From Streptosporangiaceae bacterium (GTDB lineage Bacteria > Actinomycetota > Actinomycetes > Streptosporangiales > Streptosporangiaceae), in assembly GCA_030039095.1 (NCBI GenBank), contig JASHQP010000242.1, forward strand, positions 1 through 9,669: DNA of 9,669 nt, read 5' to 3'. The notes under the pieces are model-generated. The model had not been told where the DNA came from. It did no database searches and saw only the letters and a program-made list of their open reading frames with translations. The stretch's first letter is position 1, and every line of letters starts with the position of its first letter. The position numbers and the translations under genes are program-made. Of the stretch, positions 1,901-7,792 are shown piece by piece.

Positions 1901-2878
1901 ATGGCGGGCATGACAACAGTGATCGAAGCCGAAGGGCTGACCAAACGGTTCGGCGCCACGCAGGCGCTGGCCGGCGTGGATCTGCACGCCGAGAGCGGGC
2001 GGGTGCTCGCGCTGCTCGGCCCGAACGGGGCGGGCAAGACCACGATCGTGCGCATCCTGGCCACGCTGCTGAAGCCGGATGCCGGGAGCGCCCGGCTGTG
2101 CGGCTACGACGTGGTGGCCGACGCGACGGTCGTCCGCCAGCTGCTGGCCCTGACCGGCCAGTACGCGTCCGTGGACGACGAGCTGACCGGCACCGAGAAC
2201 CTCATCATGATCTGCCGGCTGCTCGGCTTCGGCAGGGCGGCGGCCAGGACGCGGTCCCGGGAGATGCTGGAGCGGTTCGGCCTCGCCGAGGCGGCCGGGC
2301 GCGCGGTGAAGACGTACTCCGGCGGCATGCGGCGCCGGCTCGACCTCGCGGCCAGCCTGCTCGGCGAGCCCGAGGTGCTGTTCCTCGACGAGCCGACCAC
2401 GGGCCTCGACCCGCGCGGCCGCGGCGAGATGTGGGACACGGTGCGCGGCGTGGTCGCCAGCGGCGCGACGGTGCTGCTCACCACCCAGTACCTCGAGGAG
2501 GCCGACGAGCTCGCCGACGAGATCGCGGTGATCGACCACGGCCTCGTCGTGGCGTCGGGCACGCCGGCCGAGCTGAAGGCGCGGACCGGCAGCCAGACCC
2601 TGGCGGTGCGGGCCATGGACGCCGCGCACACCGCGCAGGTGGCCGCCGTCGTGGCCGACGTCGTCGGGCTGCGGCCGGACGTCGCGGAAAACGGCCTGGT
2701 CACCGTCGCAGTCAGCGATCCGGCGATGGTGCCGGCGGTGGTCCGGCGGCTCGACGACGCGGGGATCGTGGCCGCCGAGCTCAACCTGCGGCTGCCCAGC
2801 CTGGACGAGGTGTTCCTGACCCTCACCGGGCACCGCGCCGAAGACGACGAGCTTGAACGAGAAGGGAGCGCGGCATGA
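1901..2878 (+). CDS. DrrA-type ABC exporter, ATP-binding subunit
   Basis: This is a 325-residue ATPase of the daunorubicin-resistance (DrrA) subfamily, which powers export through a separate permease at the cytoplasmic membrane. All ABC motifs are present: Walker A GPNGAGKTT at residues 40-48, Q-loop Gln87, signature SGGM at 140-143, Walker B VLFLDEP at 159-165 with catalytic Glu164, and D-loop GLD at 168-170. The H-loop position is Gln196 (TTQYLEEAD) rather than His, a variation usual in DrrA-type proteins. Residues from about 225 to 325 form the C-terminal domain typical of this group, ending in LPSLDEVFLTLTG. In-frame ATGs at 1901 and 1910 are both possible starts; neither has a clear Shine-Dalgarno, and the protein beginning MTTVIEAEGL from 1910 looks most like relatives. 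The stop overlaps the permease start (ATGA), showing translational coupling. The exported substrate is unknown. Confidence 0.95.
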   Translation: MAGMTTVIEAEGLTKRFGATQALAGVDLHAESGRVLALLGPNGAGKTTIVRILATLLKPDAGSARLCGYDVVADATVVRQLLALTGQYASVDDELTGTENLIMICRLLGFGRAAARTRSREMLERFGLAEAAGRAVKTYSGGMRRRLDLAASLLGEPEVLFLDEPTTGLDPRGRGEMWDTVRGVVASGATVLLTTQYLEEADELADEIAVIDHGLVVASGTPAELKARTGSQTLAVRAMDAAHTAQVAAVVADVVGLRPDVAENGLVTVAVSDPAMVPAVVRRLDDAGIVAAELNLRLPSLDEVFLTLTGHRAEDDELEREGSAA

Positions 2879-3735
2879 CCACGCTGAGTGAATCGATCGA
2901 GGGGCGGCTCCCGGCGGGGGCCGACTCCGGCACGGCCGGCGGGCCGCCGCGCGTGCTCCGGCGGCGCACCGGCCTCGCCCAGACCCTGGCCAACGGGCTG
3001 ACCCTGGCCTGGCGCAACATCATGCAGCTCAAGCACTCGCCGGAGAAGCTGATGGACGTCACGCTGATGCCCATCATCTTCCTGCTGCTGTTCCTGTACG
3101 TGTTCGGCGGCGTGGTGGCGGGCAGCACGCACGCGTACCTCGAGGTGCTGCTGCCCGGCCTGATCGGGCAGATGGCGATGTTCGCCACGATGGGCCTGGG
3201 CACGGCGCTGTGCGAGGACATCCACAAGGGCGTGTTCGACAGGTTCCGCAGCCTGCCGATCGCGCGGTCGGCACCGCTGATCGGCGCCGTGCTCGGCGAC
3301 ACCGTGCGGTTCTGCGTGGTGATGGCGGTGCTCACCGGGTTCGGCTCGGCGCTCGGCTTCCGGTTCCACACCGGAGTGCCGTCGATCCTCGCGGCCTACG
3401 GCCTGGCCTACGTGTTCTACCTGGCGGTGTGCTGGATCTCGGTGCTGATCGGGCTCGTCGCGCCGTCGCCGGAAACCGTGCAGGGCATCTCGTTCATCTG
3501 GGTGATGCCGCTGGTGTTCGGCAGCAGCGTGCTGCTGCCGAACACGCGCACGATGCCCGGGTGGCTGCAGGCCTGGGTCAACGTGAACCCGGTGACCAAG
3601 CTGGCCGACTCGGTCAGGGCGCTGACCGTCGGCGGCCATCTGGGCTCGGACCCGCTGATCACGCTGGCCTGGGCGGCCGGGATCGTGATCGTGGTGTTCC
3701 CGCTGGCCATGCGCATGTACCGGCGCCGGGCGTAG
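2875..3735 (+). CDS. DrrB-type ABC-2 exporter permease
   Basis: The 286-residue membrane protein is the permease partner of the ATPase just upstream; the two genes overlap by 4 bases (ATGA). The start is supported by GAAGGGAG at 2861-2868, inside the upstream gene and 6 bases before the ATG. The first roughly 55 residues are cytoplasmic and arginine-rich near residues 26-32. About six membrane helices follow, near residues 61-82, 92-112, 135-160, 168-195, 203-222 and 259-280. The loop after helix 2 has CEDIHKGVFDRFRSLPIAR (113-131), the conserved ABC-2 permease element that contacts the ATPase. MPLVFGSSVLLP and VNPVTKLADSVRAL are further typical DrrB segments. The C terminus is short and basic (MYRRRA). 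Together the pair would form a 2+2 half-transporter complex. The family is known for exporting antibiotics and lipids; which substrate applies here cannot be read from the sequence. Confidence 0.95.
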   Translation: MTTLSESIEGRLPAGADSGTAGGPPRVLRRRTGLAQTLANGLTLAWRNIMQLKHSPEKLMDVTLMPIIFLLLFLYVFGGVVAGSTHAYLEVLLPGLIGQMAMFATMGLGTALCEDIHKGVFDRFRSLPIARSAPLIGAVLGDTVRFCVVMAVLTGFGSALGFRFHTGVPSILAAYGLAYVFYLAVCWISVLIGLVAPSPETVQGISFIWVMPLVFGSSVLLPNTRTMPGWLQAWVNVNPVTKLADSVRALTVGGHLGSDPLITLAWAAGIVIVVFPLAMRMYRRRA

Positions 3736-3873
3736 CACCCGTAGCAGGAGAGACCGTGCTAGCCGTACCGGAGATTCGGGAGGCTGCACGGTCGATCCGC
3801 TGCCCGGGCGTGGCGAGCATTGAGGTGTGGGTGACCGGAATGGCCGGCACCCGGCTCCACAGGAGGCATCCCG
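3736..3873. other. 138-bp gap between exporter and membrane-module/kinase operon
   Basis: No convincing gene is present. A Shine-Dalgarno-like AGGAGAG (3746-3752) lies 3 bases before a GTG at 3756, but that frame runs on through the next two genes out of phase and gives an arginine- and proline-rich shadow protein, so a gene here is unlikely. The gap is long enough to hold a promoter for the downstream genes, though I see no clear -35/-10 pair. GGGTGA at 3829-3834 also occurs twice before the peptidase gene. No good terminator hairpin was seen. Confidence 0.4.
3861..3866 (+). promoter_or_regulatory. Strong ribosome binding site for the small membrane gene
   Basis: AGGAGG is a full match to the Shine-Dalgarno core and sits 7 bases before ATG 3874. 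It is the strongest such site in the window. It fixes the start of the small gene and argues that the gene is translated in its own right rather than being a dead fragment of the kinase gene. Confidence 0.8.
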
Positions 3874-4134
3874 ATGCAAGCACCAGCCGACACCGTCCCC
3901 GGTCCCCGTCCCGTTCTCATGCGGCTCCTGGTCAGGTCGTGGGAGTACCGCCGGCCCCGCCTGGCGATCGGCATACGCTTCGCCAGCGGCGTCTTCAACG
4001 TCGCCCTCGGCGTCGCGCTGATCGCCGCGTCCCCCTGGCTCGGGCCGCTGGCGCTGCTGGGAGTGGTCCCGCTGGCGGGCGCAGTCCTGGTCTTCTGGAC
4101 CGCACGCCGTCTGCAGGCCAGTGTCCAGAGCTAG
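3874..4134 (+). CDS. Small two-helix membrane protein, paralogue of the kinase sensor module
   Basis: This 86-residue protein consists of a short tail, a basic cytoplasmic segment (RSWEYRRPRLA, residues 21-31), two predicted membrane helices (about 33-52 and 56-76) joined by a very short SPWLGP turn, and a short end. Residues 13-81 match residues 7-75 of the adjacent histidine kinase at 55 of 69 positions (about 80%, hand count), with no gaps. It lacks all kinase domains and stops at TAG 4132-4134, just after the point where the kinase continues into its coiled linker. A near-ideal ribosome binding site precedes the start. Most differences from the kinase copy are conservative swaps among hydrophobic residues, which suggests selection on an intact membrane module rather than decay. 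It may pair with the kinase membrane region or with the exporter; this is inference. No enzymatic function is visible. Confidence 0.82.
   Translation: MQAPADTVPGPRPVLMRLLVRSWEYRRPRLAIGIRFASGVFNVALGVALIAASPWLGPLALLGVVPLAGAVLVFWTARRLQASVQS
3910..4116 (+). repeat. Tandem duplication, copy 1 (in the small membrane gene)
   Basis: This 207-bp unit recurs at 4189-4395, offset by exactly 279 bp and without any insertion or deletion. Hand counting gives about 32 mismatches (about 84% identity). Both copies begin CCCGTTCTCATG and end CTGCAG, and both are read in the same frame. Flanking similarity is weak. Copy 1 has a proline-rich insertion just upstream of the block compared with copy 2. Confidence 0.9.
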
Positions 4135-4170
4135 CCTGTCAGCACCCCGCCGGCAGAACCGGAGATCCTC

Positions 4171-5070
4171 GTGAGCAACGGCGACACCCCCGTTCTCATG
4201 AGGATCCTGGTCCGGTCGTGGGAGTACCGCCGCCCCCGGCTGGCGATGGGCATACGCGTCGCCAGCGGCGTCTTCAACCTCGCCATTGGCCTCGCGCTGA
4301 TCGCCGCCTCCCCCTGGATAGGGCCGCTGGCGTTGCTGGCGGCGCTGCCGCTGGCAGGGGCGACGCTGATCTTCTGGACCGTCTCCCGCCTGCAGCAGGA
4401 CAGCCTGCGCCGGGTGGACGAGCTGGAACGATCGCGGGCGCACCTGGTGGACGACTCGGCGGCACGGCTGCGCCGGATCGAACGCGACCTGCACGACGGC
4501 GCCCAGGCGCAGATGGTCGCCGTCGCGATGAAGCTGGGGCTGGCCAGGGAGAAGCTCTCCGACGCGATCAGCGGGACCGGGCGGCCCTGCCAGCCCGATC
4601 TGGAGCGCGTCCTCGAGCTGGTCGACGCGGCGCACGGCGGGGCCAAGGAAGCCATCAACGAGCTGCGGGACCTGGCCCGTGGCATCCTCCCTCCGGTCCT
4701 CGACCACGGCCTGGGCACCGCGCTGTCCACGCTGGCCGCGCGCAGCGACGTGCCGGTTGACCTGACGGTCGATCTGCCCGAGCGCCCGTCGGCGGCGATC
4801 GAGACCATCGCATACTTCTGCGCGGCGGAACTGCTGACGAACGTGGCCAAGCACAGCAGCGCCCGGCACGCGACACTGCGGGTGGACTGCGGTTCCGGGG
4901 AAGTACGGGTGCGCGTCACCGACGACGGCTCCGGCGGTGCGCGCGTCGAGGCCCGCGGCGGGCTGGCCGGGCTCGCCGACCGGGTCCGTACCGTGGATGG
5001 CAGCCTGCAGATCAGCAGCCCGCCCGGCGGGCCTACGGTTGTCGCCGTCGAACTGCCATCGCGCGCCTGA
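4171..5070 (+). CDS. NarL-family sensor histidine kinase without extracellular domain
   Basis: The 299-residue membrane kinase autophosphorylates on histidine and passes the phosphate to the response regulator encoded 17 bp downstream. The only input region is the N-terminal two-helix module (helices about 28-46 and 51-70, short SPWIGP turn), so sensing probably occurs within or at the membrane. A coiled linker (about 72-100) leads to the HisKA_3 dimerization domain with IERDLHDGAQ and phosphoacceptor His108. The ATPase domain shows ELLTNVAKH (N-box, Asn224), DDGSGG at 251-256 (G1) and GGLAGL at 263-268 (G2). Start GTG 4171 is preceded by GGAG at 4161-4164; ATG 4198 is an alternative and is conserved in the duplicated copy. 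The signal is unknown. The exporter and duplicate small membrane gene upstream suggest envelope or drug stress, which is inference. Confidence 0.93.
   Translation: MSNGDTPVLMRILVRSWEYRRPRLAMGIRVASGVFNLAIGLALIAASPWIGPLALLAALPLAGATLIFWTVSRLQQDSLRRVDELERSRAHLVDDSAARLRRIERDLHDGAQAQMVAVAMKLGLAREKLSDAISGTGRPCQPDLERVLELVDAAHGGAKEAINELRDLARGILPPVLDHGLGTALSTLAARSDVPVDLTVDLPERPSAAIETIAYFCAAELLTNVAKHSSARHATLRVDCGSGEVRVRVTDDGSGGARVEARGGLAGLADRVRTVDGSLQISSPPGGPTVVAVELPSRA
4189..4395 (+). repeat. Tandem duplication, copy 2 (N-terminus of the histidine kinase)
   Basis: This is the second copy of the 207-bp unit, encoding kinase residues 7-75: the basic WEYRRP segment and both membrane helices. The homology ends where the kinase enters its dimerization linker, so the duplicated unit corresponds closely to one protein module. 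Confidence 0.9.
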
Positions 5071-5087: not shown

Positions 5088-5744
5088 ATGCGAATCGTCA
5101 TCGCCGAGGACTCGGCGGTCGTGCGAGCGGGCCTGGCCGAGATCCTGGCCGACCGCGGTCACGAGGTGGTCGCCACGGTCGGCGACGCCGAGGCGCTGAG
5201 AGCGGCCGTCGACGAGCACCGGCCCGACGTCACCGTGGTGGACGTGCGGATGCCGCCCGGCTACACCGACGAGGGCCTGCGCGCGGCGATCGCCATCCGC
5301 CGCGACCACCCGGAAGTCGGTGTGCTCGTGTTCTCCCAGTACATCGAGACGCGTTACGCGGCCGATCTGCTCGGCGCGGCGTCCGGCGGCCGCGCGGCGG
5401 GCGTCGGCTACCTGCTCAAGGACCGGGTCGCCGACGTGGGCGAGTTCGTTGATGCGCTGAGCCGCGTCGCCGGCGGTGGCACCGCGCTCGACCCCGAGGT
5501 CGTCACCCAGCTTCTGGGCGCCAGCCGCCGCGCCAGCCGGCTGGACACGCTCACCGCCAGGGAACGCGACGTGCTCGGGCTGATGGCCGAGGGCCGCTCC
5601 AACGGCGCGATCGCCTCGATGCTCGTCATCTCGGAGCGAGCCGTGGAGAAGCACGTCAGCAACATCTTCAGCAAGCTCGGGCTGGCCCCGTCGGACGCCG
5701 ACCACCGCCGGGTGCTGGCCGTCCTTCGTTACCTCGAGTCCTGA
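5088..5744 (+). CDS. LuxR/NarL-family response regulator
   Basis: The 218-residue cytoplasmic DNA-binding protein is the likely partner of the upstream kinase. The receiver domain has Glu7-Asp8 of the acidic pocket, phosphoacceptor Asp52 (VVDVRMP), Ser83 in the Thr/Ser switch position and Lys111 (GYLLKDR). A LuxR-type helix-turn-helix lies at about residues 153-212, with LTARERDVLGLMAEGRSN and the recognition-helix region SERAVEKHVSNIFSKLGL. All residues expected for phosphorylation and DNA binding are present. The start ATG is preceded by a GGAG at about 5079-5082. The target promoters cannot be read directly; the gap before the kinase cluster (3736-3873) and the 5745-5851 gap are candidates because both carry GGGTGA, which is a weak clue. 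Confidence 0.95.
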   Translation: MRIVIAEDSAVVRAGLAEILADRGHEVVATVGDAEALRAAVDEHRPDVTVVDVRMPPGYTDEGLRAAIAIRRDHPEVGVLVFSQYIETRYAADLLGAASGGRAAGVGYLLKDRVADVGEFVDALSRVAGGGTALDPEVVTQLLGASRRASRLDTLTARERDVLGLMAEGRSNGAIASMLVISERAVEKHVSNIFSKLGLAPSDADHRRVLAVLRYLES

Positions 5745-5851: not shown

Positions 5852-7792
5852 ATGAGCGTGGACACACCGGTGCTGACCGCGGAGCTGATCGTCGACGGCG
5901 CGGTGCCGGAGCAGCCCGAGATTTCCCCGGACGGGCGCTGGGTCGCCTACGTTGTCGCGCCGATGGGCCGGCCGGGGGAAAGCCGGCTCAGCGCCGTGTG
6001 GATCGCCGCGGCCGACGGCAGCTCACCGCCGCGGCAGCTCACCGCCGGCGCGGCCGCCGATTCCGGCCCGCGCTGGGCGCCGGACTCGGCGTCGCTGTTC
6101 TTCATGTCGGACCGCACCGGGTCGGACCAGCTGCACCGGATCCGGGTCGACGGCGGCGAGGCCGAGAGGCTGACCGGGTGGGAGGGCGAGATCTACGACT
6201 TCTGCCCGCTGGCAGACGGCCGGGTCGCCGTGGTGGCCTCGGACGAGCCGACCGAGGAGGACGAGCGCAGGCGCGCCGAGCGCGACGACGCGAGCGTCTG
6301 GAGCGAGCAGCGCGGCAACGGCAGGCTGCGGCTGCTCGACCCGGTCACGCGCGAGATACACGCGGCAGCCGACCTGGGCGGCCGTCACGCCGCCGAGCTG
6401 GCGCCGCGGCCAGACGGCGGCGCGGTGGCGGTGATCAGCTGGGAGAGCCAGGAGGACTATCCGGGCGCCAGCACCAATGAGCTGCACGTGGTCGATCCGG
6501 CGACCGGGGCATCCCATGACCTCGGCCGGGTTGCTGGCTACGCGCAGTCGCCGGCCTGGTGGGCCGACGACGGCACCTGGCACGTGGCCTACCTGGCAGA
6601 ACCCGACCCGTTCGGCGGATTCGTCGTCTACGACATCGTGCCCGGCGGGCCCGGCGGGCCCGCCGGGCACGCCTCGCCGCGCGACCTGACCACGGGCATG
6701 GACATGACCCCGGCCGGCCTGGCGCAGGTCGCCGACGGCCCGCCGCTGGCCCTGTTCGAGAGCGGGCTCGACACGCAGATCCACCGGCTCGACCCCGGGA
6801 CGCTGCGATTCCGGTGCCTGTCCGCCAGGGCCGGCGCTATCGGCTCCTTGACCGCCTGCCGTTCCGGTGAGCTCGTCGCAGCGCTGGCGAGCACCGCGCA
6901 CGAGCCGGCCGATGTCTGGGCCGGACCGCCCGGCGGCCCGCCCAGCCGGATCGGCGACACACGGCCGGAACTGCGGGAGATCGAGTGGGGGGCCCAGGAG
7001 CGCCTGTCCTACAAGGCATCCGACGGCCTCGCCCTCGACGGCCTGCTGATCCTGCCGCCCGGCCGAAGCCGCGCGGACGGCCCGTTCCCGCTCGTCACGC
7101 TCGTGCACGGCGGACCCGATGACCGGTACGCCGACGAGTTCATGCTCGCGGCGCACTGTCCTGGCCAGTGGCTTGCGGCCACGGGTTATGCGGTGTTCCT
7201 GCCCAATCCGCGCGGCGGCACGGGTCATGGCCGTGAGTTCTCGGCGGCCGTCGTGGGCGACCTGGGCGGGGCTGAGCTGAGCGACATCCTCGAGGGGATC
7301 GACATGCTGGTCGCCGGCGGTGTCGCGGACCCGGACCGGCTCGGGATCGCCGGCCCCAGCCATGGGGGGTTCATGACCGCCTGGGCGGTCGGGCAGACCG
7401 ACCGGTTCAAGGCCGCGCTGATGCTCGCCGGAATCAGCGACTGGGGCATGATCGCCGGCACCGGCGAATACGGGGCGATGGACGGCGTGCTGGCCGGCAG
7501 CTTCGGCTGGGAGGGGACCGGCCCGCACCCGCATGACCGGGTCAGCCCGGTCTCGTTCGCCTCGAAGGTCCGCACCCCGGTGCTGATCGTGCACGGACAG
7601 GACGACATCAACGTGCCGCTCGCCCAGGCCATTTACTTCCACCGCGCCCTGAGCCGGTTCGGGGCCGAGCACGACCTGGTCGTCTACCCGCGGGAGGGAC
7701 ACGGGCTGAGGGAGCGCAACCATCAGCGCGACCTGCTCCTGCGCACCCGTGCGTGGTTCGACCGGTGGCTCGGCGATCCCGGGAGCCGCTGA
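5852..7792 (+). CDS. S9 family serine peptidase (prolyl oligopeptidase / acylaminoacyl-peptidase type)
   Basis: The 646-residue protein has the two-domain build of S9 peptidases. The N-terminal part (about 20-370) is a beta-propeller that restricts access to short peptides; PD40-like repeats such as QPEISPDGRWVAYV (21-34) and SGPRWAPDSASLFF (71-84) are visible. The C-terminal alpha/beta-hydrolase domain (about 385-640) has the HGGP oxyanion motif at 419-422, nucleophile Ser503 in GPSHGGF, Asp585 in HGQDDINVP and His617 in YPREGHG, so the triad is complete. There is no signal peptide or membrane helix, so it should act in the cytoplasm on oligopeptides or N-acylated peptides. The start is supported by GGAGAGG 8 bases upstream. 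A Gly/Pro-rich stretch at about 264-271 is encoded by a GC palindrome and looks like an extended loop. The gene converges on the minus-strand regulator. Its link to the two-component operon is unproven, since an AT-richer promoter-like gap separates them. Confidence 0.95.
   Translation: MSVDTPVLTAELIVDGAVPEQPEISPDGRWVAYVVAPMGRPGESRLSAVWIAAADGSSPPRQLTAGAAADSGPRWAPDSASLFFMSDRTGSDQLHRIRVDGGEAERLTGWEGEIYDFCPLADGRVAVVASDEPTEEDERRRAERDDASVWSEQRGNGRLRLLDPVTREIHAAADLGGRHAAELAPRPDGGAVAVISWESQEDYPGASTNELHVVDPATGASHDLGRVAGYAQSPAWWADDGTWHVAYLAEPDPFGGFVVYDIVPGGPGGPAGHASPRDLTTGMDMTPAGLAQVADGPPLALFESGLDTQIHRLDPGTLRFRCLSARAGAIGSLTACRSGELVAALASTAHEPADVWAGPPGGPPSRIGDTRPELREIEWGAQERLSYKASDGLALDGLLILPPGRSRADGPFPLVTLVHGGPDDRYADEFMLAAHCPGQWLAATGYAVFLPNPRGGTGHGREFSAAVVGDLGGAELSDILEGIDMLVAGGVADPDRLGIAGPSHGGFMTAWAVGQTDRFKAALMLAGISDWGMIAGTGEYGAMDGVLAGSFGWEGTGPHPHDRVSPVSFASKVRTPVLIVHGQDDINVPLAQAIYFHRALSRFGAEHDLVVYPREGHGLRERNHQRDLLLRTRAWFDRWLGDPGSR
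6649..6668. repeat. Perfect 20-bp GC palindrome inside the peptidase gene
   Basis: The sequence consists only of G and C and is fully self-complementary around GGGCCC at 6656-6661. It is preceded by a further CCCGGCGGG unit at 6641-6649. It encodes a Gly-Pro-Gly-Gly-Pro-Ala-Gly stretch (about residues 265-272) in the propeller domain. It may be a slippage-expanded loop rather than a functional site. Confidence 0.6.

Follow-up and report, generated by a model that had tools for sequence, protein, structure and literature searches.

Why should a short open reading frame lying directly before a sensor histidine kinase gene repeat the membrane part of that same kinase? The question is raised by a stretch of 9,669 nucleotides from a Streptosporangiaceae bacterium (hereafter, the window), for which an earlier note had described, by hand count, a 207-bp block and its copy that were 279 bp apart, in the same frame, free of indels and about 84% identical. 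The exact count bears this out: the segments at 3910-4116 and 4189-4395 are 207 nt long, spaced by 279 and gap-free, with 175/207 identical positions (84.5%) and 32 mismatches distributed as 13/5/14 over the codon positions. Since the runner-up among all ungapped pairs of 207-mers at offsets of at least 60 within the window reached 103/207 matches, chance is excluded as the source of the repeat. Between the encoded modules 14 of 69 residues are changed, mostly from one hydrophobic residue to another, which is the conservative pattern described before. The features of the locus are as follows.

1901-2878, DrrA-like ABC ATPase (337 bits against a cut-off of 312, NCBIfam)
2875-3735, ABC-2 permease, exporter partner of the ABC ATPase, with its end 17 nt ahead of the conserved leader
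3752..3873, + strand, conserved operon leader with the inverted repeat ACCGTGC (3753-3759) ... GCACGGT (3786-3792), a GCGAGCATTGAG block and the Shine-Dalgarno sequence AGGAGG (3861-3866)
3874..4134, + strand, small membrane protein of 86 aa with ATG start, which repeats the kinase sensor module as a separate protein and has its own tail RLQASVQS
3910..4116, + strand, repeat copy 1 (module core), from the repeat search
4171..5070, + strand, sensor histidine kinase of 299 aa with GTG start: two-helix membrane input module, HisKA_3 and HATPase_c
4189..4395, + strand, repeat copy 2 (module core, within the kinase), from the repeat search
5088..5744, + strand, NarL-type response regulator (Response_reg and GerE)
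5852-7792, S9 peptidase, downstream of the regulator
beyond the S9 peptidase, opposite strand, TPR protein

The first copy belongs to the 86-residue ORF with the strong AGGAGG site that had been claimed for it, the site lying 7 nt ahead of the ATG. Farther upstream, positions 1150-1872 code for an acyl-ACP thioesterase-like protein (PF01643, 45.7 bits). No Rfam RNA was above cut-off in the leader or the repeat, and one match of E 0.68, far under cut-off, fell at 4987-5061. A mobile origin was rejected after searches of plasmids and viral contigs gave no match.

In the kinase, Pfam placed the start of HisKA_3 at residue 101, followed by HATPase_c, and no other Pfam domain was above cut-off in residues 1-100; the module is thus the only recognizable input region, as had been proposed for the second copy. 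The protein has two transmembrane helices with only a very short loop on the outside, and it lacks any further input domain, the two helices being taken from the model and hydropathy of the window small copy, with the kinase module itself modelled only inside a fused chain (P0129, below) and at low confidence. Because no other input was recognized, we grouped it functionally with the intramembrane-sensing kinases. It reached 41 bits against the LiaS model (NCBIfam cut-off 450), and assignment to the MadRS two-component system was discarded on NCBIfam scores of 115.7 bits for MadR (cut-off 300) and 40.2 for MadS (cut-off 500).

A search of 5.8 billion proteins (E ≤ 1e-3) yielded 665 relatives of the small protein. 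Among the best 120 of these 665, 98 were exactly 86 aa long, 70 ended in RLQ[A/T]SVQS and 2 were kinase pieces. Of the 113 stand-alone proteins in the pattern-selected set, 90 had A and 21 had V as the residue following FWT, versus V in all 118 kinases, whose chain continues past the module mostly as RLQQDS and then RVxEL. This split, together with the continuing kinase chain, indicates that the small protein has a C-terminal end of its own. Judged by its relatives, the small ORF is a genuine gene of a conserved family with nearly fixed length and its own tail. The predicted structure (24 rows, mean pLDDT 72) consists of a short helix at 14-26 and long helices at 28-51 and 53-85; hydropathy gave two peaks in the window small copy, and one clear transmembrane peak in the small proteins of three of the loci described below (G032, G059 and G053). 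Membership in a known family was rejected, as Pfam and NCBIfam gave nothing above cut-off (a weak match to Phage_holin_3_6 had 11.3 bits against 28.4) and a PDB profile search gave no match; even at permissive E-values, of 10 in Pfam and 0.1 in NCBIfam, there was no LiaF-like match.

Scanning 84,980 species genomes with a pattern returned three loci, all labelled actinomycete MAGs. In the order to which one of these belongs, a small-protein profile matched 14 of 345 genomes, with relatives in the operon and solo ones counted together. The same 345 genomes were searched from the kinase side, with an alignment of the kinases of G001-G003 as query and six candidates scored per genome. The ten best rows were G002, G003, G001, G032, G059, G339, G194, G054, G053 and G058, of which eight carried the short two-helix N-terminus and two (G054 and G058) long, different sensors; such sensors were also seen in further rows (kinases G059:C25, G336, G335 and G047), and the G055 kinase was cut at a contig end. 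The small copy was upstream in 7 of the 8 kinases with the short N-terminus; G339 has kinase and regulator without the small gene, and its leader stands directly before the kinase. One more pair, G397, came from 296 genomes drawn across the class, where the A1 profile re-found G002 only.

Altogether, the order small gene, histidine kinase, NarL-type regulator was found in nine loci (window, G001, G002, G003, G032, G059, G194, G053 and G397) out of ten, the first gene being in each a short ORF with its own tail directly upstream of the other two. The earlier note had made conserved synteny its first check, and synteny is indeed conserved; since most paired loci were located through the small protein, the 7/8 of the kinase-led search in one order is a fairer figure than 9/10. 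In G056 the small gene is at a contig end, so its kinase would lie beyond the contig. A relative of the regulator, 82-90% identical over its main piece, lies 3' of the kinase in each of the eight other paired loci (truncated by the sequence end in G194 and G397) and also in G339, hence in all ten. In G001 the regulator (L001:7415-8069) is split over two frames as sequenced. The exporter permease, which had been offered as a possible common partner, did not hold as such: tblastn (E ≤ 1e-5) found no relative of either ABC protein in the 3.3-20 kb around the eight other paired loci and G339. As far as the genome labels go, the small-gene arrangement is one of environmental actinomycetes.

We compared each small gene with its own kinase to get insight into how the two copies are related. 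Core identity was 0.84 in the window, 0.96 in G002, 0.88-0.89 in G003, 0.87 in G032, 0.81 in G059, 0.87 in G194, 0.94 in G053 and 0.85-0.86 in G397, that is, 81-96% in 8 of 9 loci, the exception being G001 (0.63). Tails, on the other hand, resembled one another across loci that share a module type, except those of G032 and G059, which are distinct. The true small-kinase pairing was the best of 362,880 permutations, a rank that is not a clean probability because the loci are related. The own kinase was the best kinase match for 7 of 9 small genes; the G001 small gene was closest to the kinase of G002 (0.87) and that of G194 to the kinase of G053 (0.89 versus 0.87 for its own). The G001 kinase module (L001:6504-7397) is strongly diverged while the small protein is canonical, as in an escape from homogenization, which means that matching is not obligatory.

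Site patterns gave the same picture in more detail. Counted as core/tail, sites shared within a locus versus sites shared between loci (small gene with small gene, kinase with kinase) were 35/0 versus 0/6 for window/G002 (Fisher 2e-7), 27/0 versus 1/5 for window/G003, 13/0 versus 0/4 for G002/G003, 20/0 versus 5/5 for window/G001, 12/0 versus 1/3 for G001/G002 and 10/0 versus 2/2 for G001/G003 (p 0.066), where the tail columns of small gene and kinase may be non-homologous and the tail sites show the common origin of the small tails. With sites before the core uncounted, the corresponding figures were 10/3 versus 0/8 for G194/G053, 16/2 versus 0/6 for G194/G397 and 27/0 versus 0/7 for G053/G397. 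For window/G002, core sharing by codon position was 12, 7 and 16; as third positions take part, the likeness is at the DNA level. The G032 pair contains a 95-nt tract with at most one mismatch and differing flanks. In a FastTree tree, small proteins and kinase modules did not form separate clades but were mostly separate with repeated mixing: the 184 modules showed 20 label changes, whereas 100 shuffles averaged 60.5. The test is a weak one, given such short modules and an input limited to the best-ranked proteins. The input was 240 proteins (the best 120 of 665 and the best 120 of 7968), of which 22 were dropped by the pattern, 112 small and 106 kinase modules passed, and 184 were left after removal of duplicates.

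The simplest reading of these patterns would be one old partial duplication per module type followed by gene conversion within each locus. The same likeness could arise if promoter and sensor part had been duplicated in tandem again and again, each time leaving a short-lived truncated gene and with no conversion involved. Such an account would explain why the own kinase is closer than any other small gene in the window, G002, G032, G059, G194 and G053 (it loses in G001, and in G003 the own kinase and the G002 small gene tie at 0.88 each), why the G397 small gene is nearer its own kinase (0.85-0.86) than two other type II small genes (0.76), and why leader pieces recur before the kinase in G001 and G002; with their own tails, G032 and G059 could be separate duplications. 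However, it would need a common breakpoint, as small-gene tails and 3' flanks are alike across loci (AGTGTCCAGAGCTAGCTTGGCAG in G001 and G002, nearly the same in the window and G003; NAKLSA-like ends in G194, G053 and G397), and identity is uneven along the G032 and G059 pairs. We consider repeated duplication improbable, and conversion after old duplications the better account. Conversion between close tandem repeats is possible without any benefit.

In G194, G053 and G397 the two-helix sequence is another one (GARHVKGVAV...LAYLVPRWN), again duplicated as a stand-alone protein. This type II copy had 172 database relatives; among the best 120 of the 172, 89 were 93 aa long and 79 had a NAKLSA-like end. 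DNA identity between types is 0.38-0.51, so the arrangement exists with two hardly alignable modules. The cores of G032 and G059 are nearer the first type, and their tails differ from both the SVQS and the NAKLSA types.

With regard to rates, small-gene pairs gave dN/dS of 0.25/0.75 (window-G002), 0.27/0.76 (window-G003), 0.11/0.31 (G002-G003), 0.16/0.24 (G001-G002) and 0.13/0.24 (G194-G053), and kinase modules 0.28/0.53, 0.33/0.49 and 0.14/0.27 for the first three of these pairs and 0.17/0.30 for G194-G053. The ratios for pairs of the window, G002 and G003 were accordingly 0.33-0.36 in small genes and 0.52-0.67 in the kinase module (0.54 and 0.57 for G194-G053), and the small gene against the kinase of its own locus gave 0.37-0.91. 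The catalytic part gave 0.11/0.44 (window-G002) and 0.07/0.13 (G002-G003), and in G002-G059 dN was 0.45 for the kinase module versus 0.12 for the catalytic part. By these estimates the kinase module changes more quickly than the catalytic part, and the small copy nonetheless changes along with it. In the unsaturated pairs the small gene appears about as constrained as the kinase module, or more, but its ratio partly reflects selection on the kinase, as conversion brings in kinase history, and pairs with G032, with G059 or across types are saturated, many near or above 1. Fast kinase modules beside slow catalytic domains, and two proteins (P0044 and P0061) that join a kinase-like start to a small-protein tail, would also be expected if the small gene were a sequence reserve from which conversion diversified kinase sensing. 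We regard this as very improbable, for there is a single donor and the visible outcome is homogenization rather than diversity.

The spacing of the two genes bears on whether the small peptide matters at all. From small-gene stop to kinase start there is 1 nt in G003 (if TTG is the start), 8 nt in G032, G194 and G053, and 10 nt in G397; by eye, G032, G194, G053 and G397 have no AGGAGG-like site ahead of the kinase start, and in G003 a GGAG is inside the end of the small gene. With starts this close in five loci, translational coupling is a real rival: the small ORF would be mainly an upstream cistron that couples translation to the kinase start, with an inert peptide whose likeness to the kinase comes from neutral conversion. 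The gaps of 36, 105, 137 and 242 nt in the window, G002, G059 and G001, with separate ribosome sites or leader pieces, do not suit this reading, and neither do the nearly fixed length of the small protein and its kinase-absent tail in many sequences. We judge it unlikely.

A like leader of about 120 nt precedes the small gene in the window, G001, G002, G003, G032, G059, G194, G053, G056 and G397 (G053 gave no usable row in the leader alignment). Both arms of its inverted repeat co-change in G397 (GTCGTGC...GCACGAC), and the arms are imperfect in G032 and G339; the leader is possibly an operator or a structured leader. A role as regulon box was rejected, since its core with up to 2 mismatches had 18 matches in 8 genomes versus 31 for the reversed control; of six exact matches, five were at the operon and one before the long-sensor kinase G059:C25.

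The same order also contains distant relatives of the small protein that stand alone; there the mixed profile A3 matched 18 of 345 genomes, operon matches included (G001, G002, G003, G032 and G059 matched through the operon also or only). Around 28 operon-free places no relative of the kinase catalytic part was found within 1.7-3.3 kb, and in 6 of the 9 solo places with upstream read a palindrome-like box replaces, by eye, the operon leader. Such a palindrome, for example CTATCAAAGTGATATCACTTTGATAG, stands just upstream of the relatives in L013, L014, L018, L020, L025 and L010 (also by eye), and is likely an operator. Solo relatives at places free of the catalytic part imply that the kinase may have taken its module from the small-protein family, and this suggests that the module started out as a small protein, though the similarity is low (27-55% to the first row). 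These observations would also suit a small protein that acts alone in the membrane, for instance on the same ligand or lipid state, next to a kinase that copied its module and has no contact with it. By itself, though, lone action does not predict the likeness within operons, and the distant link is a weak similarity; we take it to be unlikely, if the foremost of the alternatives.

We believe that a partner or co-sensor role fits best with these data. As the two copies are mostly alike within each operon, the small protein is suggested to work together with the kinase, and its most likely role would be that of a homotypic transmembrane partner that tunes a kinase of the intramembrane-sensing kind. 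In the membrane it would adopt the hairpin of the kinase module and associate with that module in mixed bundles; as first cistron with a good ribosome site, it would set the number of kinase-kinase module pairings, and the level of this pairing would in turn set the threshold of the kinase. Damping until a membrane signal frees the kinase seems somewhat likelier than activation, which is a guess. Homogenization would keep the two hairpins compatible during fast module evolution. We give a probability of roughly 0.5 to this main reading, that the small protein is a matched, separately made two-helix copy of the input module of the neighboring kinase, partnering that kinase and kept matched by conversion.

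Two modules in one chain were found in P0129 (405 aa) and in P0132 and P0136 (396 aa, near-identical to each other); after the first module, P0129 has a stretch that reads like a translated kinase-gene start region. These may be natural fusions, although for database records an assembly or sequencing error is possible. The P0129 model (pLDDT 61, pTM 0.37) was too poor for module packing. Within-locus homogenization, the second module type and such putative natural fusions go, as read from the sequences, beyond the earlier description. More tentatively, the whole could be a three-component system whose third part is a separate copy of the kinase transmembrane module, matched by gene conversion in each lineage, with sensing in mixed bundles, at least two module sequences and, sometimes, one fused chain.

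The signals of intramembrane-sensing kinases are poorly understood (PMC12239555). A matched free copy of a sole input module provides a direct test route, in which the copy is varied, the kinase is unchanged and regulator output is read, and the homogenization pattern is a natural record of matched (core) versus unmatched (tail) parts. If matching is selected, similar pairs could be sought by looking for short ORFs whose sequence recurs at the 5' end of the kinase gene that follows. In the portions of the open-licence PMC literature consulted, nothing was found on stand-alone copies of a kinase's own transmembrane module, nor on kinase sensors shaped by gene conversion.

Some intramembrane-sensing kinases are controlled by membrane partners, and several known systems are comparable. 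LiaFSR and VraTSR are three-component systems in which, as here, the gene of an accessory membrane protein (LiaF or VraT) precedes those of a HisKA_3 kinase, whose two-helix input is short, and of a NarL-type regulator. LiaF is a negative regulator. In contrast, the accessory protein described here copies the module of the kinase itself, is 83-100 aa long and has no LiaF-like match. MgrB is likewise a small membrane protein and inhibits the sensor kinase PhoQ, but it has 47 aa. It is not known to be a copy of the PhoQ module. ScrA of Staphylococcus aureus is not known to be related in sequence to the intramembrane-sensing kinase SaeS and is encoded elsewhere. It is an 88-aa membrane protein that binds SaeS via transmembrane domains and acts on the kinase by this contact, with one transmembrane helix as opposed to the two-helix small protein of the present operons (PMC12239555). 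Finally, ChrS and HrrS of Corynebacterium heterodimerize, and a catalytically dead paralogue, the ChrS pseudokinase, alters signalling (PMC9491836). That pseudokinase arose from a laboratory frameshift in the catalytic domain, whereas here the membrane module alone is found, naturally and in many sequences.
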